Assembly: GCF_017815535.1 (NCBI RefSeq)
Contig: NZ_CP072596.1
Span: forward strand, 124,001 to 188,000
Length of the DNA stretch: 64,000 nucleotides
Direction: 5' to 3'
Source: Tessaracoccus sp. MC1865
GTDB lineage: Bacteria > Actinomycetota > Actinomycetes > Propionibacteriales > Propionibacteriaceae
Both the position numbers and the translations under genes were made by a program. How positions within the stretch are numbered: the first letter of the stretch is position 1; every line of letters starts with the position of its first letter. Positions 8,111 to 44,632 of this stretch are shown here, piece by piece. The notes below the pieces were generated by a model. The model was not told the DNA's origin. It did not search any database and saw nothing but the letters and a program-made list of their open reading frames with translations.

Positions 8111-9811
<1,701 letters not shown>

Positions 9812-9876
9812 CGGACCTCCTTGTAAAGCAATCGATTCAGTCTCCCACGCACGATTTCGTGGGTTAGCGTGGGGGC

Positions 9877-10599: not shown

Positions 10600-10632
10600 C
10601 GGGGGGCGGATCGGCGAGTCTAGGCTGAGGGG

Positions 10633-11049: not shown

Positions 11050-11076
11050 CCGCCCCGTCGTCGTCGCCCCGCCACC

Positions 11077-22519: not shown

Positions 22520-22578
22520 TTGCGTTGCTGAATTCCGGCCTGTACCTTCGGAGGTAACGATTCTGGGAACGATTCCAG
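22520..22578 (+). promoter_or_regulatory. Promoter with LacI-type operator for the sugar-oxidation operon
   Basis: TTGCGT (22520-22525), a 17-bp spacer and TACCTT (22543-22548) form a plausible sigma-70-type promoter. CTGGGAACGATTCCAG (22563-22578) is a 16-bp near-palindrome with the central CG characteristic of LacI-family operators; 12 of 16 positions are symmetric. AACGATTC also occurs as a direct repeat at 22556 and 22568. The operator would cover the transcript start, a classic repression position. The likely binder is the LacI protein encoded at 32870. Confidence 0.55.
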
Positions 22579-22589
22579 TGGAGGTGGTT

Positions 22590-23738
22590 GTGAGCTCATC
22601 CCGCAATGACGCAGGGTCCGGTCCGGATCTGAGGATCGCCCGTATCAAGACGGTGCCGATCATCGCTCCGCTTGCCCGGGAGTTCCGCGGCAGCCACTAC
22701 CACATGACGCACAGGGCGACGCTGATCGTGCAGGTGATCACCGACGGCGGGATCGTGGGGGAGGCCTACGCCGGAGACGAGGACAAGACGCTCCTCGACA
22801 TCGAGGCGATCGTCCACAACGAGATCGCTCCTGCTCTCGTCGGACAGGACGCGCTGCGGACAGAGAAGTGCTGGGACCTCATGTATCCGGTGACCTTCGA
22901 CATCCTCCGTGATCGTCGTCTGGGGCTCGTGGCCATCGGCGCAGTCGACGCCGCTATCTGGGACGCGGTGGGCAAGGCTCTGGGTCAGCCCCTGTGGCGG
23001 CTCTGGGGCGGATTCCGGAACGAAGTACCGCTGGTGGCCATTGGTGGCTACTACGGTGAGCCGCTCGGGACGATCCCCGAGGAGATCCGGTACTACAAGG
23101 ACGCCGGTCTGGCAGGCATGAAGTTCAAGGTCGGCGGCGCGTCCCCCGAGGAGGATGCGCGACGGGTCGAGGCGGCCAGGGCGGCGGCCGGCGACGACTT
23201 CGTCCTCACAGTTGATGCCAACAACGGGTACACGGTTCCCCAGGCGGTGGAGTTCACCACCCGGGTTGCTGACCTCGGCATCCGCTGGTTCGAGGAGCCG
23301 GTGCAGTGGCACAACGATCTGCGCAGCCTCCGGGATGTTCGCTACCGCACGACCATCCCGATCTGTGCTGGCCAGAGCGAGATGTCGCCGTCGGGATGCC
23401 GCGACCTGATGCAGACGGGATCGATCGATGTGTGCAACTTCGATGCCAGTTGGTCCGGGGGACCGACCCAGTGGCGTCGGACCGCAGCAATCGCACTGTC
23501 CTACGACGTCCAGATGGGCCACCACGAGGAACCTCAGGTCTCCACCCACCTCATTGCCAGTCAGCCGCACGGCACGTATGCGGAGTGTTTCCACCCGGAC
23601 CGCGACCCCTTCTGGTGGCACCTCATCACCAACCGGCCGCCTCTCGAGAACGGCCATCTGATCCTGAGTGATGACCCTGGGCTGGGCTGGCAGCTCGACT
23701 GGGACTACATCGACAAGTACCGACTGGACAAACACTGA
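22590..23738 (+). CDS. Enolase-superfamily sugar-acid dehydratase (mandelate racemase type)
   Basis: 382 residues from GTG 22590. I prefer it over the longer frame from 22500 because promoter, operator and GGAGGT site lie between the two. Catalytic groups are complete: the KxK motif in GMKFKVGG, metal ligands Asp in LTVDANNGY, Glu in WFEEPVQ and Glu in AGQSEMS, then Asp in NFDASWSGG and His in MGHHEEP. This matches acid-sugar dehydratases that turn aldonates into 2-keto-3-deoxy acids. Together with the mutarotase next door, rhamnonate- or fuconate-like substrates are reasonable guesses. It is the first gene of the operon, 11 bp from the mutarotase. Confidence 0.9.
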   Translation: MSSSRNDAGSGPDLRIARIKTVPIIAPLAREFRGSHYHMTHRATLIVQVITDGGIVGEAYAGDEDKTLLDIEAIVHNEIAPALVGQDALRTEKCWDLMYPVTFDILRDRRLGLVAIGAVDAAIWDAVGKALGQPLWRLWGGFRNEVPLVAIGGYYGEPLGTIPEEIRYYKDAGLAGMKFKVGGASPEEDARRVEAARAAAGDDFVLTVDANNGYTVPQAVEFTTRVADLGIRWFEEPVQWHNDLRSLRDVRYRTTIPICAGQSEMSPSGCRDLMQTGSIDVCNFDASWSGGPTQWRRTAAIALSYDVQMGHHEEPQVSTHLIASQPHGTYAECFHPDRDPFWWHLITNRPPLENGHLILSDDPGLGWQLDWDYIDKYRLDKH

Positions 23739-23748
23739 AGGAGGGGAC

Positions 23749-24111
23749 ATGGAGCGACTCCTTTTCATCATGAGGATCAAGCCCGGCATGGAGCGCGAGT
23801 ATGAGCGCAGACATGACGCGGTCTGGCCCGCTCTACTGCGCGATCTGCACGACGCCGGCTTCCGCAACTACTCGTTGTTCCGGCGCGATCTCGAGGTTTA
23901 CGCCTACGCCGAATGCCACCCCGACGCCGAGGATGCGTTGGCGGCGATCGGCCGCTCTGCCACGAACGCCGAATGGGGTGCGTGGTTCACAGATGTGCTC
24001 GAAGCGCTCCCAGACGACGCAGGTCTGACGAGGGCCGATGAAGTCTGGCACATGGATGAGTCGCTTGCGGCAGCCAGCGACTCCAACGATCCGTCCCGCC
24101 CGGGCCGGTGA
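23749..24111 (+). CDS. rhaM: L-rhamnose mutarotase family protein
   Basis: 120 residues from ATG 23749 with GAAGGAGGGG upstream. It begins RLLFIMRIKPGMEREYERRHDAVWPAL; Tyr18 and His22 match the positions used for anomer exchange in L-rhamnose mutarotases, and NYSLFRRDLEVYAYAE follows the family pattern. It interconverts sugar anomers so that the dehydrogenase or isomerase receives the right form. The C-terminal 20 residues are polar and extend past the usual length of about 104. Presence of this family points to a rhamnose-like aldose, though the family also acts on other sugars. Confidence 0.85.
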   Translation: MERLLFIMRIKPGMEREYERRHDAVWPALLRDLHDAGFRNYSLFRRDLEVYAYAECHPDAEDALAAIGRSATNAEWGAWFTDVLEALPDDAGLTRADEVWHMDESLAAASDSNDPSRPGR

Positions 24112-24132
24112 CCCCGACAGGAGGAAACCAAA

Positions 24133-25302
24133 GTGTTCATCCGACCGTTGAATAAGGCTCTGGTCAGCGCCGCCGCTGCCCTCGCCCTCGCCACCCTCGC
24201 CGCCTGTGGCGGGGAGACCACCGACAACACCACACCTCCGGTGGAGACCGCCGCTGAGGAGACCTCTCCCGTCGCGCCCGCGGAGGAGACCACCCCTGCC
24301 TCCCCGGGAGAAGAGAGCTCCCCCGCAGAGGGGGAGACCACCGACGAAGCCTCGCCGAGCGAGAGCGAGTCGCCCTCCGGGGAAGCCGAGTTCGTCGAGT
24401 TCCGCGAAGCCGAGCCCGGCAGCGGAGAAGGCATGAAGATCGGCCTCATCGCCCTGAACGACACGATCCCGTTCAGCAAGTTGGTCTCGGACTCGATCAA
24501 GGAGCAGGCCGAGAAGGCAGGCGCCGAACTGGTGTTCTGTGATTCGAAGCTCGACGCCGCCACCGCCCTCGACTGTGCGAAGAACTTCGCGACCCAGGGA
24601 GTGGAGGGCTACCTCAACTTCCAGCCGGTCTCCGATGCGGCGCAGTCGATCTGCGACGCAGGCCCTGATGTACCCGTGATCGCCATCGACATCGCCCAGG
24701 GCGACTGTCAGGACGCCTTCATGGGTGCCAACAACAGCCGCGCGGGATTCGTCGCGGGTGAGGGACTCGGCAACTTCATGAAAGAGCAGTTCGACTGTGA
24801 GTACGACGCGTACGTGTCTCTTGAGGATCTCGGCGTGGGTGAGGTCAATACTCTGCGCATGGATGGCATCCGTGAAGGCTTCCAGTCCGTTTGCGAGGGT
24901 GAGTTGAAGAACGAGCGCGTGCTCGACGCCGGTCGTCAGGACATCGCCCTGACAAAATTCGGCGACACGCTCACTGCGCTGCCGGGTATGGAGCGCATCA
25001 TCGTCGTGGGCATCAACGACGACTCCGTCCTGGGTGCCTATGCTGCGGCGCGCACCGCGGGACGCGGAGAGCACCTCTACATGGCAGGCATGGGGGCTGA
25101 CCCCACGGCGCACTGTGAGATCGCGAACAACCCGAACTGGGCCGGCGACGCCGCGTTCTTCCCCGAGCGCTACGGAGAAATCGGCGTGCCTTACCTGATC
25201 GACCTGATCAATGGTGAGGAAGTTCCGGAGAACCTCCTCGTCAACCACATCTTCGTGAACAAGGACAACGTGTCCGAGTTCTACGACGTGAGCGGCTGCT
25301 GA
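24133..25302 (+). CDS. Sugar ABC transporter substrate-binding lipoprotein
   Basis: 389 residues with a GTG start. A lipoprotein signal ends at LAAC (lipidated Cys25), followed by about 70 residues rich in Glu, Thr, Pro and Ser that act as a spacer from the membrane. The binding domain (PF13407-like) starts near GMKIGLIALNDTIPFSKLVSDSIKEQAEKAG and includes VPVIAIDIAQGDCQDAFMGANNSRAGF and RIIVVGINDDSVLGAYAA. This is the ribose/rhamnose-type binding-protein fold. It contains several extra cysteines. It is followed immediately by its ATPase and permease. Confidence 0.92.
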   Translation: MFIRPLNKALVSAAAALALATLAACGGETTDNTTPPVETAAEETSPVAPAEETTPASPGEESSPAEGETTDEASPSESESPSGEAEFVEFREAEPGSGEGMKIGLIALNDTIPFSKLVSDSIKEQAEKAGAELVFCDSKLDAATALDCAKNFATQGVEGYLNFQPVSDAAQSICDAGPDVPVIAIDIAQGDCQDAFMGANNSRAGFVAGEGLGNFMKEQFDCEYDAYVSLEDLGVGEVNTLRMDGIREGFQSVCEGELKNERVLDAGRQDIALTKFGDTLTALPGMERIIVVGINDDSVLGAYAAARTAGRGEHLYMAGMGADPTAHCEIANNPNWAGDAAFFPERYGEIGVPYLIDLINGEEVPENLLVNHIFVNKDNVSEFYDVSGC

Positions 25303-25312
25303 GAGGCATCTG

Positions 25313-26824
25313 ATGGTCGACGTTCTCCCCCCGACAGGCGTCCCGGTGCTGTCCCTGCGTGGAGTCAGGAAGTCGTTCGGTGGTGTCGAGGTGCTCCACG
25401 GGATAGACCTCGACATCCACCCGGGCACAGTGGTGGCGCTGTTGGGGGAGAACGGGGCCGGCAAGTCCACGCTGGTCAAGATCGTGAGCGGTGACTACCA
25501 GGCCGACGACGGCACCATCATCGTCGACGGCGTTGTGCACAGCCAGATGACGCCGCAGTCCGCTTCTGAACTCGGCATCGGGATGATCTACCAGGAACTC
25601 AACGACGCCCCGTCGCTGACTGTGGCTGAGAACATCTCACTGGGCAAACTGCCCAATCGGATGGGTTTCGTCGATTGGCGTCAGGTCCGCAGTCGTGCCC
25701 GGGCTGTGCTGGAGGAACTTGAGGTGGATCTCGACATCGACCGGCCCGTCTCCACGCTACGGGTGGGCCAACGCCAGGTGATCGAGATCGCCCGTGCCCT
25801 CGTCGATCAGGCCAAGATCCTCGTGCTTGACGAACCGACGGCGGCGCTCTCCGGCGAAGAGACCGCGACCCTCTTCCGGTACATCCGTCGCCTCCGCGAA
25901 CGCGGCACCGCGATGATCTACATCACCCACCGCTTGGACGAACTCAAGGAGGTCGCCGACGATGTCGTCGTCCTGCGCGACGGACACGTCAAGTACCGGG
26001 GCTCGGTGGCGGACAGCCCCCGCGCTGACCTGGTGGAGGCCATGGTCGGGGCACGGCTGGCCGACGCGGGCAGGCCCGCGCCCGCCGGAGCACTCGGTGA
26101 GGTGGTGGCGTCCTTCGACGGGGCCACCTCGCCGGGGGCCTTCACGGATGTGGACCTCGAGGTCCGGGCCGGTGAGGTGGTCGCGCTCTACGGAAAGGTG
26201 GGCTCCGGCATCGCCGAGGTGTGTGAGGCGGCCTTCGGAACCCTTCCGGTGTCGTCGGGCAGCATCGTGCTCAACGGCGGCTACCGGCCGAAATCGCCGC
26301 GGCACTCGGTGAGGGCCAACGTCGGTTACCTACCGGCCGACCGGAAATCCGAGGGCGCCTTCGGAATACTCACCAGCGCCCGCAATCTCGGTGCGGCCAG
26401 CTGGTCGCGCGACGCCCGGGCCTCGCTGTGGGCCGACGCCGGGGCTGAGAATGAGGCCTTCGAGCGCTGGCGGGATGAGCTGAACATCAAGGTGAGCCCG
26501 CAAGGGGCCAACCGCCCCATCTTCAGGCTCTCCGGTGGCAACCAGCAGAAGGTGCTCCTGGCGCGCTGGCTGCACGCGGACTCATCGCTGATGCTCCTGG
26601 TCGAGCCGACCCGAGGGGTGGACGTGGGTGCCCGTCAGGACATCTACCAGGCACTGCGGGATCTCGCCGCGGATGGAATCGGGATCCTGGTCGCCACCTC
26701 GGATTCGGAGGAGGTGGTCCACCTCGCGGACCGGGCCGTTGTGATGGCACGCGGCGAGGTCGTTCGTGAACTGAGCCATGACGAGGTCACCCTTGCCGCG
26801 CTGACTGATGCGGCTGGAGGCTGA
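25313..26824 (+). CDS. Sugar ABC transporter ATPase with two nucleotide-binding domains
   Basis: 503 residues, RbsA/MglA type. NBD1: Walker A GENGAGKST (residues 45-53), Q-loop MIYQELNDAPSLTVAENI, a variant signature STLRVGQRQ, and Walker B ILVLDEPTAALS. NBD2: degenerate Walker A GKVGSGIAEV (as usual in this family), signature LSGGNQQKVLLARWL, and MLLVEPTRGVDVG, where the Walker B Asp of LLDEPTRG is Val. NBD2 is therefore likely to bind but hydrolyse ATP poorly. It powers uptake through the permease at 26827; 10 bp separate it from the binding-protein gene and 2 bp from the permease. Confidence 0.94.
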   Translation: MVDVLPPTGVPVLSLRGVRKSFGGVEVLHGIDLDIHPGTVVALLGENGAGKSTLVKIVSGDYQADDGTIIVDGVVHSQMTPQSASELGIGMIYQELNDAPSLTVAENISLGKLPNRMGFVDWRQVRSRARAVLEELEVDLDIDRPVSTLRVGQRQVIEIARALVDQAKILVLDEPTAALSGEETATLFRYIRRLRERGTAMIYITHRLDELKEVADDVVVLRDGHVKYRGSVADSPRADLVEAMVGARLADAGRPAPAGALGEVVASFDGATSPGAFTDVDLEVRAGEVVALYGKVGSGIAEVCEAAFGTLPVSSGSIVLNGGYRPKSPRHSVRANVGYLPADRKSEGAFGILTSARNLGAASWSRDARASLWADAGAENEAFERWRDELNIKVSPQGANRPIFRLSGGNQQKVLLARWLHADSSLMLLVEPTRGVDVGARQDIYQALRDLAADGIGILVATSDSEEVVHLADRAVVMARGEVVRELSHDEVTLAALTDAAGG

Positions 26825-26826
26825 AG

Positions 26827-27849
26827 ATGAACAGGGAGGAACCCATGAGTGAGACAGGCCCCGAGGTGGGTCAGCCCGCAGCAGCGCCAGACCCGGCTAC
26901 TGCTGACGCGGCGCCCGCCCGCAAGAGGATCACGATCCCTGAGATGGCCGCGCTGATCGGAGTCCTGGCCGTCCTTATCGTCTTCTTCAGCGTGGCGAGC
27001 CCCTTCTTCCTGAGCGCCAACAACCTGCTGAACATTCTCACCGCGATCGCCGTGACGGGCATCCTCGCGGCGCCCGGCACCCTGCTGCTCATCGCGGGGC
27101 AGGTGGATCTGTCGGTGGGTGCGGCGACCGCCCTGTGCGGGATTGTCCTTGCCGTGCTCACCCCCACCCTCGGGTTGCCTGTGGCGGTGCTCACCACCAT
27201 CGCGACCGGCTGCATCATCGGTCTCATCAACGGTGTGCTCGTAACGGTCGTCGGTCTGAACAGCCTGATCGTCACCCTCGGTGGGCTGGCGGCGTTCCGC
27301 GGCGTGGCCTTCCTTCTCGGAGACGGGCAAACGGTGATAATGCCGAACTTCGGCTACCTCGGCACGGCGCGTCCTTTGGGGGTCCCGATGCCCGTCGTCG
27401 TCCTGCTGGCCTTCATGGCGGTGGTCTACGTCGTGCTGCGCTACACCGTGTTCGGGCGCAACATCTATGCCATCGGCGCCAATCCCGTTGCCGCCCGACT
27501 GGTGGGCATCCCGAGCCGCCGAACCATCTTCCTCGCCTTCGTGGCCTCCGGCGTCGCCATGGCGACTGCCGGCATGATCCTCACCTCACAACTGGGGGCC
27601 GCCGTGCCCAATGCGGCCCTCGGGATGGAGTTGATGGTCGTGACCGCCATCGTGCTGGGCGGAGCCAGCCTGTCGGGTGGAAGGGGATCGGTGCTCGGAA
27701 CTCTGCTCGGCCTGGTCATCATCGGAGTGTTGAACAACGGACTCATCCTGATGAACGTCTCGTCCTATTGGCAACAGGTCGCCAACGGCGTCCTGCTCGT
27801 GGCAGCCGTCTCGTTCGACCGGCTACGAGAACGCTTCTCACCAGCCTGA
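26827..27849 (+). CDS. Sugar ABC transporter permease (RbsC type)
   Basis: 340 residues from ATG 26827 (GGAGG 6 bases upstream); ATG 26845 behind GGGAGGAACCC is an equally good start giving 334 residues. About ten membrane segments follow a polar N-terminus. BPD_transp_2 hallmarks: NNLLNILTAIAVTGILA, LIAGQVDLSVGAATALCG, ALGMELMVVTAIVLGGASLSGGRGSVLG and GVLNNGLILMNVSSYWQQV. It forms the channel of the importer, probably as a homodimer with the preceding ATPase. Confidence 0.94.
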   Translation: MNREEPMSETGPEVGQPAAAPDPATADAAPARKRITIPEMAALIGVLAVLIVFFSVASPFFLSANNLLNILTAIAVTGILAAPGTLLLIAGQVDLSVGAATALCGIVLAVLTPTLGLPVAVLTTIATGCIIGLINGVLVTVVGLNSLIVTLGGLAAFRGVAFLLGDGQTVIMPNFGYLGTARPLGVPMPVVVLLAFMAVVYVVLRYTVFGRNIYAIGANPVAARLVGIPSRRTIFLAFVASGVAMATAGMILTSQLGAAVPNAALGMELMVVTAIVLGGASLSGGRGSVLGTLLGLVIIGVLNNGLILMNVSSYWQQVANGVLLVAAVSFDRLRERFSPA

Positions 27850-27863
27850 CAAGGAGAACTGAC

Positions 27864-28922
27864 ATGTCCGCCAAGACCAGAGTCGGCGTCATCGGCGCCG
27901 GATCCTGGGCCCTCGCCTCCCACCTGCCCAACCTGGCCCGCCGCGACGACGTGGAGTTCGTCGCCGTCAACCGGCGCGGGGAGGATGCGCTCAAACGCGT
28001 CCAGAGGGCATATGGCTTCGCCCATGCCCATACCGAGTGGCAGGACGTCCTCGACCACGACATCGACGTCGTGGTCATCTCGAGCCCCACGTCTTTCCAC
28101 GTCGAGCAGGGCGTCGCGGCGCTGGAGCGCGGTATCCATGTGCTGATGGAAAAGCCGGTGGCCATCGACTCCCAGTCCGCCTGGCGGCTGGCCGAAGCCA
28201 GCGAGCGGACCGGCCGTCACGTGGTGGTGGCGTTCGGGTGGAACTTCAAGCCGATGATCCGGCAGGCGAAGCGGCTGATGACCGAGCACGGCATCGGCGA
28301 GGTGGAGGCGGTGAGCCTGCACATGTCGTCGCAGACGAGGGAACTGCTCTCCAACACCGGCGCCTATCCGGACGCGAGCAAGGACCTGCTTCCGCAGAAC
28401 GAGACTTGGACCGACCCGAGTATCTCCGGCGGGGGCTACGCGCAGGCTCAACTCAGCCACGCACTGGGCCTCCAACTGTGGCTGACCGACATGCGCGTGG
28501 ACGGTGCGTTTGCGCGGATGACGGCGCCCCTGAGTGCTCCAGTCGAGCTGCACGATGCCGTGACGCTGCGGTACGAGGGAGGCGCCATCGGGACGATGTT
28601 CGGTGGGTCCAACCACGTCGGGGCCGGAAACAACAAACACCAGCTCAACTTCTTTGCCATCGGGAGCGAGGGCCAACTGCGGGTCGACGTCGAGCGCGAA
28701 CAGGTCTGGCTGTTCCGCTCCGATGGATTCGAAGCGAACCTCCCACTCACCGATAAGGATGGCGCCTACGACTGCATCGGCCCTGTGGACACCGTGATTG
28801 AGTTGGCGCAGGGCGGGCATGTGGAGAACTGCGCGCCGGCATGGCTCGGCGCCCGCACCGTCGAAGCACTGGAGCTCGCTTACGCCAGTGCCGGTTCAGG
28901 GCACTTCGAGGAGCGGAAGTGA
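27864..28922 (+). CDS. Gfo/Idh/MocA-family oxidoreductase
   Basis: 352 residues from ATG 27864 (AAGGAG upstream). The N-terminal NAD(P) fold has VGVIGAGSWALASHLPNLA and VVISSPTSFHVEQGVAALERGIHVLMEKPVA, with the EKP catalytic motif. The C-terminal domain includes GGGYAQAQLSHALGLQLWLT, containing the His at the usual active-site position. It probably oxidises the imported sugar or a derived intermediate. Its stop overlaps the GTG of the SDR gene (GTGA at 28919). Two oxidoreductases in one operon suggest two oxidation steps, or one oxidation plus one epimerisation. Confidence 0.92.
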   Translation: MSAKTRVGVIGAGSWALASHLPNLARRDDVEFVAVNRRGEDALKRVQRAYGFAHAHTEWQDVLDHDIDVVVISSPTSFHVEQGVAALERGIHVLMEKPVAIDSQSAWRLAEASERTGRHVVVAFGWNFKPMIRQAKRLMTEHGIGEVEAVSLHMSSQTRELLSNTGAYPDASKDLLPQNETWTDPSISGGGYAQAQLSHALGLQLWLTDMRVDGAFARMTAPLSAPVELHDAVTLRYEGGAIGTMFGGSNHVGAGNNKHQLNFFAIGSEGQLRVDVEREQVWLFRSDGFEANLPLTDKDGAYDCIGPVDTVIELAQGGHVENCAPAWLGARTVEALELAYASAGSGHFEERK

Positions 28923-29662
28923 CGGGCCTCGACCTGGGCGCCTCTCTGAAGGGACGCGTCGTCGTCGTCACCGGTGCAGCCGGTGCCATCGGGTCCAAGG
29001 TGGCCCTCGCCCTGGACGAGGCCGGTGTGCGTGTGTTGGCGGTCGATCTCCCGGGGAGGACTCCTCCCCACCTGCGGAGTGGGGCCCCCGCGTCGTACGA
29101 CCTGGTGGACGTGGGTGGACATGAGGACCTGTTCGAGCACGCCCGGGCGCTGGGTGAGGTGGTGGGCCTCGTGCACACTGCGGCCATCATCCGCCGCAGC
29201 GCGGTCGACGAAGTGACCGAGGAAGATTTCGACACGCAGGTGGCAGTGAACCTGAAGGCCACCTACTTCCTCAACCGCCAGGCGTGGCGCACGATGCGCT
29301 CAGTGGGGCGCGGCTCAATCGTCAACTACGTCTCGCAGGGCTGGATGTCCGGGGGCTACCAGGGGAGCATCGTCTACGCGGCCACCAAAGGTGCGGTCAC
29401 GAGCATGACGCGGGGTTTCGCCCGCAGCTTTGCGCCTGACGGCGTGCGGGTCAACGCCGTCAGCCCTGGCTACGTGGACACCGAGATGTTGCGCGAGGGG
29501 GTTTCACCGGAGGACCGCCAACGGCTGGTCGACGAGGTACCCCTCGGGCGGCTCGCTGACCCCGATGATCTGGTCGGGGCCACCGTGTTCCTGCTCTCCG
29601 ACGCTGCCAGCTACATCACCGGAGCCGTCATCAACGTCTCCGGTGGGCAACTCATGTACTGA
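28919..29662 (+). CDS. Short-chain dehydrogenase/reductase
   Basis: 247 residues from a GTG overlapping the previous stop. NAD(P) motif VTGAAGAIG (about residues 18-26), SIVNYVSQGWMSG with the catalytic Ser, YAATK (YxxxK) intact, and VNAVSPGYVDTEML followed by ITGAVINVSGGQLMY, the normal FabG-like ending. In related non-phosphorylating pathways, SDRs oxidise either the free aldose to its lactone or the C4 hydroxyl of 2-keto-3-deoxy acids; the sequence alone does not decide. It precedes the E1 genes by 16 bp. Confidence 0.92.
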   Translation: MTGLDLGASLKGRVVVVTGAAGAIGSKVALALDEAGVRVLAVDLPGRTPPHLRSGAPASYDLVDVGGHEDLFEHARALGEVVGLVHTAAIIRRSAVDEVTEEDFDTQVAVNLKATYFLNRQAWRTMRSVGRGSIVNYVSQGWMSGGYQGSIVYAATKGAVTSMTRGFARSFAPDGVRVNAVSPGYVDTEMLREGVSPEDRQRLVDEVPLGRLADPDDLVGATVFLLSDAASYITGAVINVSGGQLMY

Positions 29663-29678
29663 AGGAAGGGGACGCAAC

Positions 29679-30713
29679 ATGCCAAGAATGCGAATGAACC
29701 AGGCCATCTCGGCGGCGCTGGCCGATGCGATGGCGGCCGACGATTCGGTAGTGGTCCTGGGTGAGGACGTGGCGGCCGCAGGTGGCCCGTTCAAGACCTC
29801 GGACGGGCTCCTGGAGCGGTACGGACCGGAGCGAGTCCGCGACACACCCATCTCCGAGATGGCCTTCACCGGGGCCGCTGTAGGTGCCGCCATGCACGGG
29901 CTGCGCCCCGTGGTCGAGATCATGTTCATGGAGTTCCTGGGCGTCGCCCTGGACCAGTTGGCCACCGAGGCGGCCAAGATCCGTTACCTGTCCAGGAGCC
30001 AGTACACGGTGCCCATGGTGCTGAGGGCCTCGGTCGGATCGGGCACGGGTTTCGGCTGTCAGCATTCACAGACCCTGGAGAACTGGGTTTCGGCGACCCC
30101 TGGCCTGTCCGTCGTCAGCCCGAGCGACGCGCAGACCGCGTACAGCCTGTTGCGGGCGGCCATCGAGCACCCGGATCCGGTCGTCGTGCTGGAACCACGC
30201 GTGCTCTACGGCGTGCGCAGTGAGGTCGACACCGGCCACCGGATCGCGATCGGTCATGCCCGTGTCGCACGAGGCGGTGTCGACGCGACGCTGATCGCGT
30301 TGGGCCGCACCACCAGGGTTGCGTTGGAGGCGGCCGAGAGGCTGGCGCAGGAAGGCATCGAGGCCGAGGTCGTCGATCTGCTCACCCTCGTGCCGCTCGA
30401 CCGGGAGTCCGTCCTGTCTTCGGTACGCCGCACGGGGCGTCTCGTCGTCGTGGAGGACTCGCCCCACTCGGGGGGCTGGGGCAGCGAGATCGTCAGTCTG
30501 TGCGCGGCGGAGGCCTTCGGCGACCTGAAGGCCCCACCGTGCCGGGTCAGCGCTCCGGATGTCCCTGTTCCCTACGGCAAGGAGTTGGAAGAGATGTACG
30601 CACCCTCGGCCGACGAGGTCGTCCGTCAGGTCCAGGCGATGGTGGGTGACGGTCAACCCCTGCCCGACTGGTGGGACCGCGAAGGCCTGACTGTGAAGGG
30701 GGCGACGGCATGA
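29679..30713 (+). CDS. 2-oxo acid or acetoin dehydrogenase-type E1, beta subunit
   Basis: 344 residues from ATG 29679 with GAAGGAAGGGG upstream. It has the transketolase pyrimidine-binding domain (MNQAISAALADAMAADDSVVVLGEDV, TPISEMAFTGAAVGAAMHGLRPVVEIMFMEF; the Glu of ISEMAF activates thiamin diphosphate) and the C-terminal transketolase domain (LIALGRTTRVALEAAERLA, VEDSPHSGGWGSEIV). It pairs with the alpha subunit encoded next. The order beta-alpha is the reverse of most pdh, bkd and aco operons. Substrate class (pyruvate, branched oxo acid, acetoin or another diketone) cannot be read from the sequence. Confidence 0.93.
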   Translation: MPRMRMNQAISAALADAMAADDSVVVLGEDVAAAGGPFKTSDGLLERYGPERVRDTPISEMAFTGAAVGAAMHGLRPVVEIMFMEFLGVALDQLATEAAKIRYLSRSQYTVPMVLRASVGSGTGFGCQHSQTLENWVSATPGLSVVSPSDAQTAYSLLRAAIEHPDPVVVLEPRVLYGVRSEVDTGHRIAIGHARVARGGVDATLIALGRTTRVALEAAERLAQEGIEAEVVDLLTLVPLDRESVLSSVRRTGRLVVVEDSPHSGGWGSEIVSLCAAEAFGDLKAPPCRVSAPDVPVPYGKELEEMYAPSADEVVRQVQAMVGDGQPLPDWWDREGLTVKGATA

Positions 30714-31702
30714 GCACCGCCCTGGATCTGCGCGCAGCCCTCGATGACCCGCTGCAGCGCTACCGGCGCATGGTGGAGATCCGGGTGGCCGAGGACACCG
30801 TGAACGAGCTGTTCGCCTCCGGTGCGATCCACGGGACGACACATCTGTGCCAGGGCCAGGAGGCCCTCGACGTGGGGCTGGCCTCGGTGTTACGCGCCGA
30901 CGACGCGGTGACTGCCACCTATCGCGGCCACGGCGTCGCGTTGGCGTTGGGGCTGCCGCTCGAATCCATGTTCGCCGAGATCATGGGAAAGACCACCGGC
31001 TCAACCGGCGGCGTGGGCGGTTCCATGCACCTCTGCCTCGACGAGGTGGGCCTGCTGCCCACCTTCGCCATCGTCGGCGCGGGCCTACCAGTGGCCGCAG
31101 GAGCGGCACTGGCCTTCAAGACCAAGGGGGAGGACCGCGTGGCTGCCGCGGTCTTCGGCGACGGTGCCAGCAACATCGGCGCCTTCCATGAGTCGCTCAA
31201 CCTGGCTGCCATCTGGCAGCTCCCAGTGGTCTTCCTCCTGGACCACAACGTCTACGGGGAGTACAGCCGATGGGACGTCACCACCCCCTTCGAGGATCTG
31301 GTCCGCCGCGCCGCCTCCTACGACATGCCGGGCGAACAGGTGGACGGAATGGATGTTGACGCGGTGCGGAAGGTGGTCGGAGAGGCTGCTGACAGGGCCC
31401 GTGAGGGCGGGGGTCCCACCCTGGTTGAGGCCAAGACGTACCGCTTCTCCGGGCATTCACGCTCCGATACCGCGCCGTATCGGCCCGAGGGCGAGTTGGA
31501 GGAGTGGCGGAAACGGGACCCGCTCACCATCAGTCGCGCGGCACTGCTGGACCGAGGTACCGGTGCCGCCGACCTCGATGGTGTCGAGGTCGAGGCGCGG
31601 GAGGCCGTGCAACGGGCCGTCCAGGCCGCCACTGCGGCAGAGAGCCCGACGTCCGCCGCAATGTTCGAGCACGTCTGGACCGAAGGGGGGTCCCATGGCT
31701 GA
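30710..31702 (+). CDS. 2-oxo acid or acetoin dehydrogenase-type E1, alpha subunit
   Basis: 330 residues from an ATG overlapping the beta-subunit stop. It carries the thiamin diphosphate motif beginning GDGASNIGAFHESLN and ending FLLDHNVYGEYS, plus THLCQGQEALDVGLASVL and YRGHGVALALG, and the phosphorylation-loop-like FSGHSRSD. The compact size (about 330) and the acetoin-dehydrogenase-like GGSMHLCLDEVGLL suit the AcoA branch, which splits a diketone or hydroxyketone, as well as oxo acid E1. It overlaps the lipoyl gene by 8 bp. Confidence 0.93.
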   Translation: MSTALDLRAALDDPLQRYRRMVEIRVAEDTVNELFASGAIHGTTHLCQGQEALDVGLASVLRADDAVTATYRGHGVALALGLPLESMFAEIMGKTTGSTGGVGGSMHLCLDEVGLLPTFAIVGAGLPVAAGAALAFKTKGEDRVAAAVFGDGASNIGAFHESLNLAAIWQLPVVFLLDHNVYGEYSRWDVTTPFEDLVRRAASYDMPGEQVDGMDVDAVRKVVGEAADRAREGGGPTLVEAKTYRFSGHSRSDTAPYRPEGELEEWRKRDPLTISRAALLDRGTGAADLDGVEVEAREAVQRAVQAATAAESPTSAAMFEHVWTEGGSHG

Positions 31703-31928
31703 CATGAAGCTGCCGAAAGTGGCCGACTCAAGCGACACGTACGTCGTCGTCTCGGTCGAGGTCGCGGTGGGCGACCGCGTCGCTCCGGGGGACGTGGTGC
31801 TGGTGGTCGAGACCGACAAGGTGGACGCGGAGGTCGCTGCGGGGTTCTCCGGCGAGGTCACAGCCGTCCTCGTCGGCGAGGACGACGAGGTGGCAGTGGG
31901 CGCGACCGTCCTGGAGTACGAGCCATGA
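31695..31928 (+). CDS. Free-standing lipoyl-domain protein
   Basis: 77 residues from ATG 31695. The whole protein is one biotinyl/lipoyl domain: MADMKLPKVADSSDTYVV, GDVVLVVETDKVDAEVAAG with the lipoylation Lys42 in the DK(V/A) turn, and EDDEVAVGATVLEYEP. There is no hinge, E1/E3-binding domain or acyltransferase domain, so it is not an E2 on its own. It is translationally coupled to E1 alpha before and the amidohydrolase after (ATGA at 31925). It should carry the acyl or hydroxyacyl group produced by the E1. No E2 core or E3 is encoded in the window. Confidence 0.93.
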   Translation: MADMKLPKVADSSDTYVVVSVEVAVGDRVAPGDVVLVVETDKVDAEVAAGFSGEVTAVLVGEDDEVAVGATVLEYEP

Positions 31929-32830
31929 GCATCATCACCGACAGGCTCCCCGCCTTCGTCGACACTCACATCCACCTGTTCGACCTCTCGCACCCCAGCC
32001 TCCGCTGGGACTGGATCGACACGCCGGATGACCACTACGAACTCGGCAACATCGACCAAATCAAGATGCGTGCCTTCACGATGCGCGCGCTCGAGGCGGA
32101 GGCCCGCTTCAGCGGCGTGACGTCGTTCGTCCACGTCCAAGCCGCGATCGGTTCCCCGGATCCCGTCGAGGAGACTCGCTGGCTCGAGGCCATGGCCGTG
32201 GAACACCCCCGGTTGGCGGCCATCGTCGGCCACGTCACGCTCGCTGACCGTGACGCCGGGGACGTGATGGACGCCCACCTTGCTGCAAGCACGCGGTTCC
32301 GGGGGGTGCGGGACTTCGCCGTCGAACCGTGGCTCGCCTCCGGCCGGAACGACCCCGCGATGGAACGGGGCCTCGCGCTGCTCACGGAACGAGGGCTGCT
32401 GCTGGACCTGGACTGCGCATACCCGAACATGTCGGCAGCCCGCAGGATGGCGGGGCGCTACCCGGAACTACCCGTCGTGCTCGAGCACATCGGATTCCCG
32501 CGACGCAGGGACAAGGAGTACTTCGACAACTGGTCCGCCGGCATCCGTGAGTTGGCGCAGGCCGACAACGTCACCTGCAAAATGTCCGGGATCGCCATGA
32601 CCGATCCCCAGTTCACGCTGGATTCGCTCCGGCCATGGGCTGAAACGTGCCTGCAGGTCTTCGGGCCGGAACGCTGCATGATCGGCAGCAACTGGCCGCT
32701 CGACCGGCTGTTTTCCTCCTATGACAGCATTATCGCTGTGTACCGAGAGCTCCTCGGCTCCCTTGATCGCGAGGAGCAGGAGCAGGTGCTGATCACAACT
32801 GCGGAACGCGTGTACCGCCCGGAGCGGTGA
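31925..32830 (+). CDS. Amidohydrolase-2 family hydrolase, probable sugar lactonase
   Basis: 301 residues from an ATG overlapping the lipoyl-gene stop. PF04909 signature: DTHIHLFDLSHPSLRWDWI with metal-binding His15 and His17, LLDLDCAYPNMSAARRMAGRYPELPVVLEHIGFP with a late His, and CMIGSNWPLDRLF with the closing Asp-type position. This subfamily includes L-fucono-1,5-lactonase, L-rhamnono-lactonase-type and 4-sulfomuconolactone hydrolases. In this context, opening an aldonolactone made by one of the dehydrogenases is the best guess. Confidence 0.88.
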   Translation: MSIITDRLPAFVDTHIHLFDLSHPSLRWDWIDTPDDHYELGNIDQIKMRAFTMRALEAEARFSGVTSFVHVQAAIGSPDPVEETRWLEAMAVEHPRLAAIVGHVTLADRDAGDVMDAHLAASTRFRGVRDFAVEPWLASGRNDPAMERGLALLTERGLLLDLDCAYPNMSAARRMAGRYPELPVVLEHIGFPRRRDKEYFDNWSAGIRELAQADNVTCKMSGIAMTDPQFTLDSLRPWAETCLQVFGPERCMIGSNWPLDRLFSSYDSIIAVYRELLGSLDREEQEQVLITTAERVYRPER

Positions 32831-32869
32831 GACGGCGTGCTTCGCCTGCGACGAAAGGAGGTGTGACGA

Positions 32870-33892
32870 GTGACGGGAATTGCTGAACCGGTACCCGGCA
32901 ATGCCACGATCCGGGACGTTGCGAGCAGGGCTCAGGTCGCCCTCTCCAGCGTTTCACGGGTGTTGACCGGTCATCCTGACGTGTCGCCGCAGATGCGGGC
33001 GAAGGTCGAGAAGGCCGCCGCAGAACTCGGCTATGTGCCCGACCACCTCGCCCAGGCGTTGCGGCAGGGACGCACGACCACTGTCGGGTTCCTCCTGCGC
33101 GACATCTCGAACCCGTTGTTCGCCAACATCGCCAAGCGTTGCGAACACGACCTCCGTCAGGCGGGGTACTCCATGATCTTCATGAGCTCGGACGGCGACG
33201 CTGAGGTCGAGACCAGCAACCTGGCGGTGCTGAGACGGCGCCGGGTGGACGGGGTGATCGCCTCACTCGTGACGGAGACCGCCCCCGACACCGTTTCTGC
33301 GCTCCAACAGTTGACCGTCCCGCTCGTCCTGGTCGACCGCGAGGTGGAAGGGGTGAGCGCCGGCGCCGTATTGACTGATCACTATTCGGGCGTGCTGGAG
33401 GCTGTCAGGGCGCTGCTCGCGGACGGACGGCGCCGAATCGCCCTCGTCACCGGCAACCTCGACGTGCGCTCCACCCGCGAACGGACGCGGGCGATGATGG
33501 ACGCCCACACCGAGGCCGGCATCGACTTGGACACCGAGCTGCTGAAGTTCGGAGCCTTCGACTCAGACTGGGGCCACCGGGCCACCGGGGAACTGCTCGG
33601 GATGGACCGGCCGCCCGACGCGATCCTCGGAGGGGGCATCGGTCCTGCGCTTGGAGCGCTCCAGGTGCTGCGTGAGCGGGGCGTCTCCGATGCGATCTCC
33701 ATCGTCGCTCTTGACGAATGGCCGCACTTCGACGTCCTGACACCAGGGATCGCCTCAGTGCGCCGAGATGCGTCGATGGGTGAGGTCATCGCCGCCGAAA
33801 TGTTACGGCTGCTCCGCAGTGGAGAGCCGGAGGTCAGCCTGCTCCCGACGATCTTCGACGGCCGGGGAGTGCTGCCGAAGGAGAGCCGATGA
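32870..33892 (+). CDS. LacI-family regulator of the sugar-oxidation operon
   Basis: 340 residues with a GTG start at 32870 behind AAAGGAGGTG. The helix-turn-helix TIRDVASRAQVALSSVSRVL spans about residues 13-32, followed by the hinge DHLAQALRQGRT. The sugar-sensing domain has VGFLLRDISNPLFANIAKRCE, VDGVIASLVTETAPD, RRIALVTGNLDVRSTRERT and ISIVALDEWPHFDVLTPG. Being embedded in the operon, it probably controls it through the operator at 22563-22578 and is relieved by an imported sugar or pathway acid. Its stop overlaps the next start (ATGA at 33889). Confidence 0.93.
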   Translation: MTGIAEPVPGNATIRDVASRAQVALSSVSRVLTGHPDVSPQMRAKVEKAAAELGYVPDHLAQALRQGRTTTVGFLLRDISNPLFANIAKRCEHDLRQAGYSMIFMSSDGDAEVETSNLAVLRRRRVDGVIASLVTETAPDTVSALQQLTVPLVLVDREVEGVSAGAVLTDHYSGVLEAVRALLADGRRRIALVTGNLDVRSTRERTRAMMDAHTEAGIDLDTELLKFGAFDSDWGHRATGELLGMDRPPDAILGGGIGPALGALQVLRERGVSDAISIVALDEWPHFDVLTPGIASVRRDASMGEVIAAEMLRLLRSGEPEVSLLPTIFDGRGVLPKESR

Positions 33893-35010
33893 TCACCGAA
33901 CTCGAGGCCTGGACAGTGCCCTACACCGAGCCGAACGACCATGGTTCGACACGGTTTGTCACGATCTGCCGGCTGACCGATGACGCGGGTAACCACGGAT
34001 GGGGCGAGGCCGTCACGATCGCTCCGGAGGCCGCCCGCGCCACCACGATCGTGCTGAGAACCTGGGCGGAGTCCATTTTAGGGACCCCCGCCACCCCGGC
34101 AGGAGTGGGACTTTTCGCTGAGCAGCGCGGCTGGTGGTACGGAACGTTCGGTGGCGTTTCGGGCTTCGCAACGGCCGCCCTGGATACCGCAGTGTGGGAT
34201 CTCCTGGGCCGTCGGCTGGGCGCTTCCGTGGTGGACCTGCTCGGGGGAGCCCGGCATGAATCGCTCCCGACGATCGTCACCAGCCACGCCATGCGCGCCG
34301 ATCTCCGGCAAGGCGCAGAAGAGTTCGCACAGTGGGCTCAGCGACTCGGCGCCGCCGGGGTCAAAGTGGGCTTCGGCAAGGCCGGCGACGCCCACCTGGG
34401 CTTCGAACATGAGCGCGACGTGGCGTTCCTGTCCGAAATCCGGCGTGCCCTGGGTGAGAAGGCGCAGATCCTCATCGACGTCTCGCCGCGGGTCGCCTGG
34501 TCTCCGTCGGATGCCATCCGACGCGTGCTGGCGTTCGAAGAGTACGGGCTCCACTGGATTGAGGAGCCGCTGGGAGCGCGGGACCCGGAGGGCTACGCCC
34601 GTCTGAGGGATGCCACCAGCACTTTGATCGCCTACGGCGAGCGTGAATGGACCGTCGGTGGGATGGCGGAGATCCTGGCCACCGGCACCGTCGACGTCCT
34701 AGGGATCGACCCTGGGCGCGCCGGCGGGATCTCGGGCTTCCGGGCCGGGGCCGAGTTGGCCGCCGCGCACCACCGGCAGGTCAATGCCCACGCATTTGCC
34801 GGCCCCATCTCGTACGCGGGTGGGTTGGCCGTGTCGCTGGCCAGCGCCAACTGCCGCCAGTTCGAGGTGGCCCCGTTGCGAAACACGCTGATCACTGAAC
34901 TCTCGCCGGCGCTGCCCCTGCCCGTTGACGGCCTGGTGTCTCCGCTGGAAGGCAGCGGCCTCGGTGTCGAGATCGATGTTGAGCGACTGCTGGCCGTCGC
35001 AGAGACTTAG
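33889..35010 (+). CDS. Second enolase-superfamily enzyme (mandelate racemase type, variant KxK)
   Basis: 373 residues. Metal ligands are present: Asp in ILIDVSPRVAW, Glu in HWIEEPLG, Glu in YGEREW, then Asp in GIDPGRAGG and His in NAHAFAGPISY. The lysine motif reads GVKVGFGK: the first Lys is kept, but the second residue of KxK is Gly when aligned with the paralogue at 22590 (GMKFKVG). This changes the acid/base set, so it may dehydrate the opposite stereoisomer or racemise instead. The two enzymes share only family-level similarity. It overlaps the LacI gene by 4 bp. Confidence 0.88.
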   Translation: MITELEAWTVPYTEPNDHGSTRFVTICRLTDDAGNHGWGEAVTIAPEAARATTIVLRTWAESILGTPATPAGVGLFAEQRGWWYGTFGGVSGFATAALDTAVWDLLGRRLGASVVDLLGGARHESLPTIVTSHAMRADLRQGAEEFAQWAQRLGAAGVKVGFGKAGDAHLGFEHERDVAFLSEIRRALGEKAQILIDVSPRVAWSPSDAIRRVLAFEEYGLHWIEEPLGARDPEGYARLRDATSTLIAYGEREWTVGGMAEILATGTVDVLGIDPGRAGGISGFRAGAELAAAHHRQVNAHAFAGPISYAGGLAVSLASANCRQFEVAPLRNTLITELSPALPLPVDGLVSPLEGSGLGVEIDVERLLAVAET

Positions 35011-35074
35011 CGTCACGCAAATGTCCGTGACAAGGAGTTATCCATCCGAATGCCTCCAGAACCAGGGAGAGAGC

Positions 35075-36505
35075 ATGCTGCACAACTCGTTAGGACTCAC
35101 ACCCCACAGCCGGCCCCGGATGAAGATCGGGCTGGTGAGCGGCGGGTTGGGGGCGTACTGGGAGCAGTTCCCCCAACTCCTGCCGCTGCTCAAGGAATCG
35201 GTCGCCTATGTGTCAGACAGGTTCAGGCGACTTGACGCAGAGGTCATCGACGCGGGCTTCGTGTCGGATCCGCAGGAGTCCCGCAAGGCGGCCGAGGTGC
35301 TGCGCCTCGCCGACTGTGATCTCGTCGTCATCTACCTCACCACCTACCTGACGTCGTCGCAGGTGTTGCCGATCGCGCAGCGGGCGGGTGCGCCCGTACT
35401 GATCATCGATCTCCAACCGTCGGAGAAGATGGATCACGACAGTTTCGGCACGGGTGAATGGTTGGCGTTCTGCGGCCAGTGTCCAGTCCCCGAAGTTGCC
35501 AACGTGTTCATGCGGGCCGGGATCGAGTTCAGGTCCGTCACCGGGTGGTTGCGCCAGGACGACGCCTGGGAGCGGATTCTGCAGTGGGTGCGGGCCGCTG
35601 GGGCTCGGTCCCGGCTCCGGAATGCCCGGCACGGGCTCATGGGGCATCTCTATCCCGGGATGCTGGACGTTTCCACGGATCTGACGACGGTGTCGACCAC
35701 GTTCGGCGCCCACGTGGAGGTCCTGGAGTTCGACGATCTTCGCGAGCGGGTCAACGAGGTCTCCGGCGACGAGGTCGCGGAGAGGGTGGAGTTGGCTCGA
35801 CAGATCTTCACAGTTGACGACACGGTCGCCGAAGAAGACTTCCGCTGGGCCGCCCAGGTCTCGGTGGGGCTGGACCGCCTCGTCGAGGACTTCGACCTCG
35901 ACTCCATCGCCTACTACCACCGCGGTCTTGGCGGCGAGTACCACGAGCGGCTCGGTGCCGGCATGATCCTTGGTGCTTCGCTGCTGACCGCACGGGGGAT
36001 CCCTGCGGCGGGCGAGTACGAGTTGCGCACGGCGATCGCGATGTTGACCGCCCAGTCACTCGGGGCCGGCGGTTCGTTCACCGAGATCCAGGCGCTCAAC
36101 TACGAGGACAACGTCGTCGAAATGGGCCACGACGGTCCGGCCCACTTGGCGATCTCCGCCCGGCGACCCCTCCTGCGGGGACTCGGCGTGTACCACGGTA
36201 AACGTGGGTGGGGGGTCTCCGTGGAGTTCGACGTGGCCCATGGGCCGGTCACGCTGCTCGGGCTCGGCCAGAACTGTGATGGAAGTTACGTCTTCACGAC
36301 GTCTGAAGGCACCGTGGTGGAAGGCCCGCTGTTGAAGATCGGCAACACCACGTCGCGCGTCGACTTCGGCCGCGATCCGGGGCGCTGGGTTGATGACTGG
36401 AGCGCGTCGGGTGTGGGACATCACTGGGCGCTGTGCGTCGGACACCAGGCTGCAACGGTCAAGGCCGTCGCGTCACTGGCGGGAATCGGGTACCGCGAGG
36501 TGTGA
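35075..36505 (+). CDS. L-arabinose/L-fucose isomerase-like protein
   Basis: 476 residues from ATG 35075 (GGGAGAGAGC upstream). The N-terminal domain starts MKIGLVSGGLGAYWEQFPQL, and the middle holds HGLMGHLYPGMLDVSTDLTTVSTTFGAHVEVLEF. The C-terminal domain carries NYEDNVVEMGHDGPAHLAI and AGEYELRTAIAMLTAQSLGAGGSFTEI; Glu and His here fit the metal ligands of AraA/FucI enzymes. It probably interconverts an aldose and ketose. That is unexpected in an otherwise oxidative operon and suggests a branch or an epimer-salvage step. It is the last gene before the terminator at 36504. Confidence 0.85.
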   Translation: MLHNSLGLTPHSRPRMKIGLVSGGLGAYWEQFPQLLPLLKESVAYVSDRFRRLDAEVIDAGFVSDPQESRKAAEVLRLADCDLVVIYLTTYLTSSQVLPIAQRAGAPVLIIDLQPSEKMDHDSFGTGEWLAFCGQCPVPEVANVFMRAGIEFRSVTGWLRQDDAWERILQWVRAAGARSRLRNARHGLMGHLYPGMLDVSTDLTTVSTTFGAHVEVLEFDDLRERVNEVSGDEVAERVELARQIFTVDDTVAEEDFRWAAQVSVGLDRLVEDFDLDSIAYYHRGLGGEYHERLGAGMILGASLLTARGIPAAGEYELRTAIAMLTAQSLGAGGSFTEIQALNYEDNVVEMGHDGPAHLAISARRPLLRGLGVYHGKRGWGVSVEFDVAHGPVTLLGLGQNCDGSYVFTTSEGTVVEGPLLKIGNTTSRVDFGRDPGRWVDDWSASGVGHHWALCVGHQAATVKAVASLAGIGYREV

Positions 36506-44289: not shown

Positions 44290-44632
44290 CCGCGCGTAAC
44301 TCCGTGAGGTAGGAGGGGCGAGCTCGACGTCTTTTTCCCGCCATGATTCACTTGCGCCCGCCAATCCCCCCACAATGCGCTGACCAGCCGCTCAACCCTT
44401 TGCAGGCACGTAAAGAATTGCCTGAAAGTTCATTACCAAAAGGTGGCGACAAACGGGCCCGTGGGGGCATATGGTGCTGAACAAGGGTTTAAAGGGGGGC
44501 ACCGTCCGGCGTGGGGGACAACTACTGACACAACGGTCATTCCCTGACGTACGACAGACGCCTCCTGGCCGATCCCGGGGCAGCTGCGGCGCCGATAGCC
44601 GTGGCCCCCGCAGACCGAAGTGGGGAAGATTG
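44290..44632 (+). other. Upstream region of the first repeat protein with conserved leader block
   Basis: 343 bases without a convincing gene; the repeat-protein frame is open back to 44471 but that extension is unlikely to be translated (no signal-peptide character). A G-rich block at 44483-44519 (AAGGG-N5-AAGGGGGG...GGGGGAC) has a counterpart at 49173-49211 before the second repeat protein. No known riboswitch fold was recognised. Confidence 0.5.

Follow-up and report, generated by a model that had tools for sequence, protein, structure and literature searches.

How would an operon that appears to be dedicated to sugar oxidation bring its pathway to an end when it encodes none of the enzyme families described for that step? 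The question is raised by a 64,000-nucleotide stretch of the genome of Tessaracoccus sp. MC1865 (contig NZ_CP072596.1), which we call the window and which covers positions 124001-188000 of the 3,035,218-base single-contig genome. Fourteen tightly packed genes, all on the plus strand, span positions 22590-36505 of the window and include both subunits (E1beta and E1alpha) of a thiamin-dependent 2-oxo acid dehydrogenase E1, followed by a small stand-alone lipoyl protein. Family searches of the operon matched no aldolase, FAH-type hydrolase or sugar-acid kinase, as the preliminary description of this stretch had stated, and they matched no E2 acyltransferase or E3 family either. On balance we favour the view that these genes form one operon for a non-phosphorylating deoxyhexose pathway, which would end in decarboxylation by the E1 onto the lipoyl protein with an E2 supplied in trans. 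That an E1-lipoyl module ends a sugar-acid pathway has good support at the genetic level and is chemically plausible.

The evidence that carries this view is the company that the E1 keeps in other genomes. An E1alpha alignment made from 32 of 120 listed homologues was run once on named genome contigs and gave 161 relatives, of which the best 80 were kept (L031-L110). Many of these loci end near a contig edge, and 34 of them, the well-flanked subset, have at least 7 kb on either side of the E1. As controls we used 20 other E1alpha places, picked by hand, all from the order of the window organism and with flanks of about 9 kb, including one with short flanks (L153) and three from a single genome (G050). 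Gene models are our own open reading frame (ORF) calls, the identity limits for counting genes were chosen by eye, and related genomes are not independent samples. A homologue of the mandelate-racemase-type (MR/MLE) enzymes was present in 31 of the 34 well-flanked loci compared to 1 of the 20 controls, a PF04909 hydrolase in 17 compared to 1, and a lipoyl match in 30 compared to 3. E2 showed the opposite pattern, with none of the 34 against 9 of the 20. Judged by this control, the association of the E1-lipoyl module with sugar-acid genes exceeds chance and is more general than one operon; it is the pairing that the preliminary description had proposed to look for by a gene-neighbourhood search.

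In the window the operon begins with a GTG start at 22590, preceded by GGAGG at 22580, and its final stop ends at 36505. Adjacent genes range from an 8-base overlap to a 64-base gap, taking 35075 as the start of the last gene. Its features are as follows.

22564..22577, no strand assigned: LacI-type operator candidate TGGGAACGATTCCA, 12 bases 5' of the GTG at 22590
22590..23738, plus: MLE1, an MR/MLE sugar-acid dehydratase candidate (MR_MLE; KxK, DxN, EEP and GHH motifs)
23749..24111, plus: rhaM-family mutarotase (PF05336)
24133..25302, plus: sugar-binding protein of an ABC importer (PF13407, Peripla_BP_4)
25313..26824, plus: ATPase of the ABC importer (PF00005, ABC_tran, in two stretches)
26827..27849, plus: permease of the ABC importer (PF02653, BPD_transp_2)
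27864..28922, plus: Gfo/Idh/MocA dehydrogenase, a sugar 1-dehydrogenase candidate (PF01408, GFO_IDH_MocA; PF22725)
28919..29662, plus: short-chain dehydrogenase/reductase (SDR) family dehydrogenase, with Ser150 three residues before the catalytic Tyr153
29679..30713, plus: E1beta (PF02779, Transket_pyr; PF02780, Transketolase_C; NF006667 at 325.2 bits, cut-off 321)
30710..31702, plus: E1alpha (PF00676, E1_dh), with Thr43 and Glu184 in place of human Phe61 and Met200
31695..31928, plus: stand-alone lipoyl protein of 77 residues (PF00364, Biotin_lipoyl; ETDK motif, Lys42)
31925..32830, plus: PF04909 hydrolase (Amidohydro_2), a lactonase candidate
32870..33892, plus: LacI-family regulator (LacI family match)
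33889..35010, plus: MLE2, a second MR/MLE-family enzyme (MR_MLE; KxK without the second Lys)
35075..36505, start possibly 35120, plus: isomerase-like protein with weak likeness to sulfoquinovose and L-arabinose isomerases

Family searches and a check of starts and stops confirmed the gene set and coordinates given in the preliminary description, whose list was right in what it named but lacked the LacI regulator at 32870-33892. Dehydrogenase, lactonase, mutarotase and MR/MLE families are all present, and no such protein attains a curated cut-off that is specific for a substrate. MLE1 matches PDB entries 3msy, 4h83 and 3no1 with E values of about 1e-194; these entries name no function, and the roles of its KxK, DxN, EEP and GHH motifs are those that we take them to have. 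Pfam gave no match for the isomerase-like protein, which reached 52.6 bits against the sulfoquinovose isomerase model, where the cut-off is 700. The genes flanking the operon have no evident relation to it by eye. Further downstream, on the plus strand, lie two very long open frames of 1431 and 3518 residues (44471-48766 and 49214-59770).

Across all 80 loci E1beta is present in 78 and sits directly 5' of E1alpha in 71, and a lipoyl protein gene was scored in 68, of which 66 carry the lipoyl motif [ED][TS][DE]K. MLE1 was counted in 39 loci, MLE2 in 36, PF04909 in 33, the SDR in 30, LacI in 22 and Gfo/Idh in 15; the permease (13), ATPase (11), rhaM (10), binding protein (9) and isomerase-like protein (5, at 62-64% identity) are less frequent. 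Three large ORFs in L031, L034 and L037 had no Pfam match. Within the well-flanked subset MLE1 was found in 25 loci at a limit of 45% identity or more, MLE2 in 20 and either of the two in 30, alongside the SDR in 20 and the lipoyl gene in 29. The 80 loci carry the record names of several classes of Actinomycetota, with five Chloroflexota, two Pseudomonadota, one Bacteroidota label, one Acidobacteriota and some unassigned. Several environmental bins (L042, L044, L046, L047, L048 and others) are labelled, for example, Bifidobacterium breve or Streptomyces griseus but have an E1alpha in the clade that holds Planktophila, and these names look wrong. The closest named E1alpha homologue among the matches listed is labelled Propioniciclava, at 79%. 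In 35 sampled genomes of the same genus (G001-G035) the best E1alpha matches had E values from 1.9e-17 to 1.3e-48, the latter a 46% fragment at a contig end in G015, compared to 2.8e-218 for the window itself. Because these matches are far weaker than the window's own, the distribution of the operon within the genus looks sporadic.

What kind of E1 is this? It has the E1_dh, Transket_pyr and Transketolase_C domains, the thiamin diphosphate motif and the catalytic His of a 2-oxo acid dehydrogenase E1. The catalytic site of human E1alpha includes His63, Met200, His263, Phe61 and Tyr89, according to the available text of PMC6168537. Residue counts and a tree were made from 98 of 107 E1alpha rows, the other nine being lost where the frame read gave no alignment to the window. 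The equivalents of His63, Tyr89 and His263 are retained in all 80 relatives, while the Phe61 equivalent is Thr in 72 and Ser in 8. At the Met200 position all 80 have Glu followed by Tyr, with an Arg two residues further on in 67 (Arg187 in the window). Among 17 other E1alpha rows, Glu occurs once at the Met200 place and Thr three times at the Phe61 place. The window protein, with Thr43 and Glu184, thus lacks the Phe61 and Met200 of the human pyruvate pocket, and it differs in this region from the branched-chain-type E1 of its own genome as well. Our tree places it with L034 (99/92) inside a 51-row clade (100/99), separate from that branched-chain-type E1 and from human E1. E1alpha scored 319.4 bits against the TIGR03182 cut-off of 393.85 and falls below both pyruvate dehydrogenase (PDH) alpha cut-offs, whereas E1beta just exceeds its own (NF006667), so that the curated models disagree. 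We rejected an ordinary pyruvate dehydrogenase because Phe61 and Met200 are replaced in 80 of 80 relatives, and the E1 may be read as a functional 2-oxo acid dehydrogenase with a polar pocket. Elsewhere in the genome (521000-535000, L114) E1alpha and E1beta are fused in an 820-residue protein at 8639-11101 of that locus, beside dihydrolipoyl-dehydrogenase-like and PF00198 genes and with several SDRs in the stretch.

The lipoyl protein has the PF00364 fold with the DK-motif lysine, as expected of a lipoyl domain at the level of sequence. An E2 was found in 2 of the 80 related loci by BLAST with the genome's own E2 genes, and a search with one regular expression found E3 in none. The two E2-bearing loci, L079 and L082, are close kin in which a 248-residue E2 catalytic domain, matching PF00198 only, lies near E1beta-E1alpha-lipoyl. 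The gene directly after the lipoyl gene there was considered as the E2 and rejected, since it looks CobW-like by eye; another gene farther along encodes the E2 domain. Ten genomes with a related E1 have between 2 and 6 PF00198 matches each. Two complete small genomes that hold the triplet (via L059 and L061) have two PF00198 genes each, in frames of 582 and 1347 residues and of 556 and 1253 residues, which from their lengths would be a PDH-type E2 and an OdhA-type fusion. Because there are only these two, the E1 in those genomes must share an E2 or work without one. Four PF00198 genes are present in the window genome, all outside the operon, and the two that were scanned have their own lipoyl and E3-binding domains. 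A Sphingobium plasmid (L116, 6974-9230) has an E1alpha-E1beta-lipoyl triplet without an annotated E2 on a different branch of the tree, adjoining SDR, cupin and M24 metallopeptidase genes.

The dehydratase and E1 genes also seem to share their regulation. When up to two mismatches are allowed, the CG-centred palindrome TGGGAACGATTCCA at 22564-22577 is found once in the window, compared to 0.34 expected. A generalised pattern, TGGNANCGNTNCCA, was drawn after the sites had been seen, and with at most one mismatch it occurs 120 times in the 1,225,696 bases of the 80 loci. Of these sites 39 fall in the 42,834 bases (3.5%) upstream of operon-type genes, compared to 4.2 expected; 16 of them precede MLE1 and another 16 E1beta, and the 39 are spread over 24 loci. 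Exact sites are placed in the same way, 10 of 15 being upstream of operon-type genes where 0.5 would be expected; the control loci (372,000 bases) hold no exact site and 12 with one mismatch. Eight loci (L033, L040, L051, L061, L073, L076, L083 and L087) have separate sites before the dehydratase gene and before E1beta. Such common placement supports a single regulon for the two sets of genes, and the operon is probably LacI-controlled. Operators of the LacI family resemble one another. Promoter and terminator scans gave matches at chance level only. In Jiangella asiatica (L087, 2143-5050) two sulfatase-like genes, judged by eye, lie near E1beta-E1alpha-lipoyl with two operator sites, which hints at sulfated sugars.

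Could the chain be cleaved by a lyase encoded elsewhere? The preliminary description had named an aldolase or hydrolase at another site, co-induced with the operon, as what would speak against its proposal. Candidate genes do exist, since whole-genome family searches returned one HpcH/CitE, two FAH, two DHDPS and two class II aldolase matches, no CaiB, and one marginal PF01081 match (29.9 bits, cut-off 27.8), but all lie outside the operon, and their contexts, read by eye, belong to other pathways and include housekeeping ones. As a hidden diketo hydrolase we rejected both FAH genes, one beside a gentisate-dioxygenase-like gene (L125, 7461-9412) and the other in a leu/ilv neighbourhood. The DHDPS genes, in DapA-like and NanA-like contexts, were rejected as a hidden aldolase for 2-keto-3-deoxy-fuconate (KDF). 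One class II aldolase is beside AraA and looks AraD-like. The other, a PF00596 match, belongs to a rhamnose operon (L131, genome 702000-720000) and forms a fusion with a rhamnulokinase-like protein, as an 835-residue frame on the minus strand at 8697-11204 of the locus, adjoining rhamnose-isomerase-like, LacI, GH3-like and rhamnosidase-like genes. Because the lyase-family genes lie in the contexts of other pathways, no dedicated lyase is obvious in the genome, other aldolase families not having been searched.

As to the sugar, L-fucose is the likeliest substrate and L-rhamnose the second, to judge from the genes. Four GH29 matches in the genome cover 93-98% of the profile, with one further weak fragment, and the only curated match of the PF04909 hydrolase is L-fucono-1,5-lactonase, at 106.7 of 400 bits. 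A FucA-type aldolase was not recognised in the genome; fucose isomerase was not searched for.

We propose that L-fucose or L-rhamnose would enter through the importer and be mutarotated. The Gfo/Idh or the SDR enzyme would oxidise it at C1, the PF04909 hydrolase would open the lactone, and MLE1, MLE2 or both would remove water to form a 2-keto-3-deoxy acid. In place of an aldolase or diketo hydrolase, E1alpha-beta would then add thiamin diphosphate to the C2 ketone and release CO2, and the C5 acyl group (3,4-dihydroxypentanoyl from a 6-deoxyhexose) would be loaded on the lipoate of Lys42. Transfer of the acyl group to CoA and reoxidation of the lipoyl carrier would fall to an E2 and E3 encoded elsewhere. 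The acyl-CoA might finally give acetyl-CoA and lactaldehyde through a CitE/malyl-CoA-lyase-like enzyme, or be used by oxidation and thiolysis. A CitE-like lyase is near the E1 in 19 of the 80 loci and a CaiB CoA-transferase in 30 (BLAST with one reference), in 25 of them at 57% identity or more, which would fit CoA-thioester chemistry after the E1. More tentatively, and with less confidence than in the outline above, we suggest the specific version in which an E2-less E1-lipoyl with a polar pocket (Thr43, Glu184 and Arg187) oxidatively decarboxylates KDF or 2-keto-3-deoxy-rhamnonate (KDR), borrows the housekeeping E2 and E3 to make 3,4-dihydroxypentanoyl-CoA, and leaves a CitE-type lyase to form acetyl-CoA and lactaldehyde, in Actinomycetota including Planktophila-type lineages and in Chloroflexota relatives.

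This changes the earlier proposal in several respects. E1 and lipoyl protein as the pathway ending gained from the linkage, the operator, the catalytic residues and the pocket unlike that of PDH, but a 2,4-diketo substrate did not. Carbon-carbon cleavage by the E1 holds for the removal of CO2 between C1 and C2; a split in mid-chain would need another enzyme, for which the CitE-like lyase encoded in only some of the related loci is a candidate. Transfer of the acyl group to lipoyl and on to CoA has the lipoyl carrier beside the E1 in its favour, but the E2 it needs is absent from the operon. The suggested oxidation by the SDR to a 2,4-diketo acid fell on a residue. In the available text of PMC11199699 the four described types of L-KDF 4-dehydrogenase have an Arg three residues before the catalytic Tyr. 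Ser150 occupies this Arg148-equivalent position in the window, and among 30 orthologues it is Ser in 27 and Ala in 1, with two not read. We therefore rejected the window SDR as an L-KDF 4-dehydrogenase and prefer an E1 acting on the 2-keto-3-deoxy acid itself.

Several observations weigh against this reading. Operator sites are missing from the upstream intervals of 56 of the 80 loci, the motif with two mismatches is no more frequent in the genome than its reversed control (9 against 8), and a second exact operator site in the window, at 15616, lies inside a gene. In three loci (L085, L091 and L107) no tested sugar gene reached the threshold, and the surroundings of L079 and L082 do not look like sugar genes by eye. 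No lipoyl gene was scored in 12 loci: L031 has one by eye, L060 is cut off by the end of its contig, and the other ten have none in view, including L091, where it was not found, and four from Chloroflexi (L096, L097, L101 and L102), where one long frame matches both subunits, resembling an E1beta-E1alpha fusion, and no lipoyl gene was recognised. A 2,4-diaminopentanoate-dehydrogenase-like protein near the E1 in 22 loci (L032, L036 and L040, for example) has no role in the proposed pathway. Five other SDR frames do have the Arg (L034, L062, L077, L091 and L100). CaiB and CitE occur mainly in one group of related genomes. Since the window genome has no CaiB, and its single CitE-like gene lies outside the operon, the final steps are unproved in its case.

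How do other explanations compare? It is possible, although we think it less likely, that the same chemistry serves another sugar (L-rhamnose, or another deoxy or branched sugar) and so gives the E1 another 2-oxo acid, which would be compatible with our preferred explanation. A further point against L-fucose is GH78 near the E1 in four of the 80 loci (L034, the sister locus, L067, L069 and L078), which leaves L-rhamnose possible, and canonical rhamnose genes adjoin the E1 in L057, L063 and L072. However, the window genome already has a separate, canonical-looking rhamnose operon by eye, along with its four GH29 genes, and of the two class II aldolases one resembles AraD and the other is the fusion in that operon. 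A reading in which the SDR makes a 2,4-diketo acid, the E1 decarboxylates it to a 3-oxoacyl-CoA, and a thiolase yields acetyl-CoA and lactoyl-CoA seems unlikely to us. The SDR gene is immediately 5' of E1beta, its orthologues recur in the well-flanked loci, and route 3 for L-fucose is known to pass through a 2,4-diketo intermediate (available text of PMC11199699), but the window SDR lacks the Arg, and a thiolase motif, sought with a single regular expression in the ORFs of the 80 loci, was not found. Some relatives, such as the sister locus L034 with its second, Arg-bearing SDR, may have a diketo branch.

It is rather improbable that the E1 is an extra pyruvate dehydrogenase for pyruvate formed by an aldolase or hydrolase elsewhere. 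E1beta does score slightly above a PDH-beta subfamily cut-off (NF006667), and DHDPS-, HpcH- and FAH-family genes are present, whereas the pocket departs from the human one in every relative, the lyase-family genes sit in neighbourhoods of other pathways and E1alpha falls short of both PDH-alpha cut-offs. Least probable in our view is an E1 of the acetoin-dehydrogenase kind, for which an acyloin CH3-CO-CHOH-R formed by C5 oxidation would be split to acetyl-lipoyl and an aldehyde. The best curated model for E1alpha is PDH_E1_alph_y, which we take to include acetoin-type E1. Plasmids of Priestia, Nitratireductor and Sinorhizobium (L117, L118 and L119) hold E1alpha-E1beta-E2 sets. Two of these sets have an annotated lpdA; PTS glucitol genes adjoin the set in two cases and a sugar ABC importer in one, and the sets may serve an acyloin-type sugar cleavage. 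But no enzyme that would oxidise C5 was identified, and the usual neighbour of our E1 is an MR/MLE gene, whose dehydratase members yield a 2-oxo acid directly. Our preferred reading, a decarboxylating E1 that acts on the 2-keto-3-deoxy acid, would retain the energy of this reaction in a CoA thioester, and acetyl-CoA might be formed directly. It would also mean a 2-oxo acid dehydrogenase with a private lipoyl domain and an acyltransferase shared with central metabolism. Because the module is found in genomes labelled Planktophila, Nanopelagicales, Micromonosporaceae, Salinibacterium and Acidimicrobiia, it may matter for the turnover of algal and plant deoxy-sugars, and the finding supplies a sequence signature for it.

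Of the known endings, route 1 of L-fucose breakdown uses an aldolase to give pyruvate and lactaldehyde, and route 3 a 4-dehydrogenase and a hydrolase to give pyruvate and lactate, route 2 being that of pentoses (available text of PMC11199699). The operon shares with the non-phosphorylating L-fucose and L-rhamnose routes 1 and 3 the candidates for mutarotase, dehydrogenase, lactonase-type hydrolase and MR/MLE dehydratase, all in one operon. It differs from route 1 in having no KDF/KDR aldolase and an E1-lipoyl module in its place, and from route 3 in having neither a FAH-type diketo hydrolase nor an Arg-bearing SDR. Fucose and rhamnose catabolism in SAR202 is similar in its many MR/MLE enzymes, SDRs and COG3618 proteins, which are assigned there to non-phosphorylative 6-deoxyhexose use, but that reconstruction ends in pyruvate with lactate or lactaldehyde, and the available main text does not contain 'pyruvate dehydrogenase' or 'lipoyl' (PMC10444878). 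The terms thiamine and acetyl-CoA are likewise absent from the available main text of PMC13406643. In the literature that we examined there was no account of an E1-lipoyl ending for a sugar-acid pathway and no further ending for L-fucose, and an E1-lipoyl pair beside sugar-acid dehydratase genes points to an undescribed way to finish deoxy-sugar breakdown.

Compared to the pyruvate, acetoin and branched-chain 2-oxo acid dehydrogenase complexes, the operon has the same E1alpha/E1beta thiamin diphosphate motif, catalytic His and lipoyl carrier. It differs in that its lipoyl domain is a separate 77-residue protein, in the absence of E2 and E3, and in the Glu and Thr at the Met200 and Phe61 places. 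A precedent for an E1, a lipoyl domain and an acyltransferase working in trans is the PDH-ODH hybrid complex of actinobacteria, in which OdhA relies on lipoyl domains carried by the PDH E2. The operon departs from that complex in that the lipoyl domain is placed next to its own E1, while the acyltransferase is the missing part.

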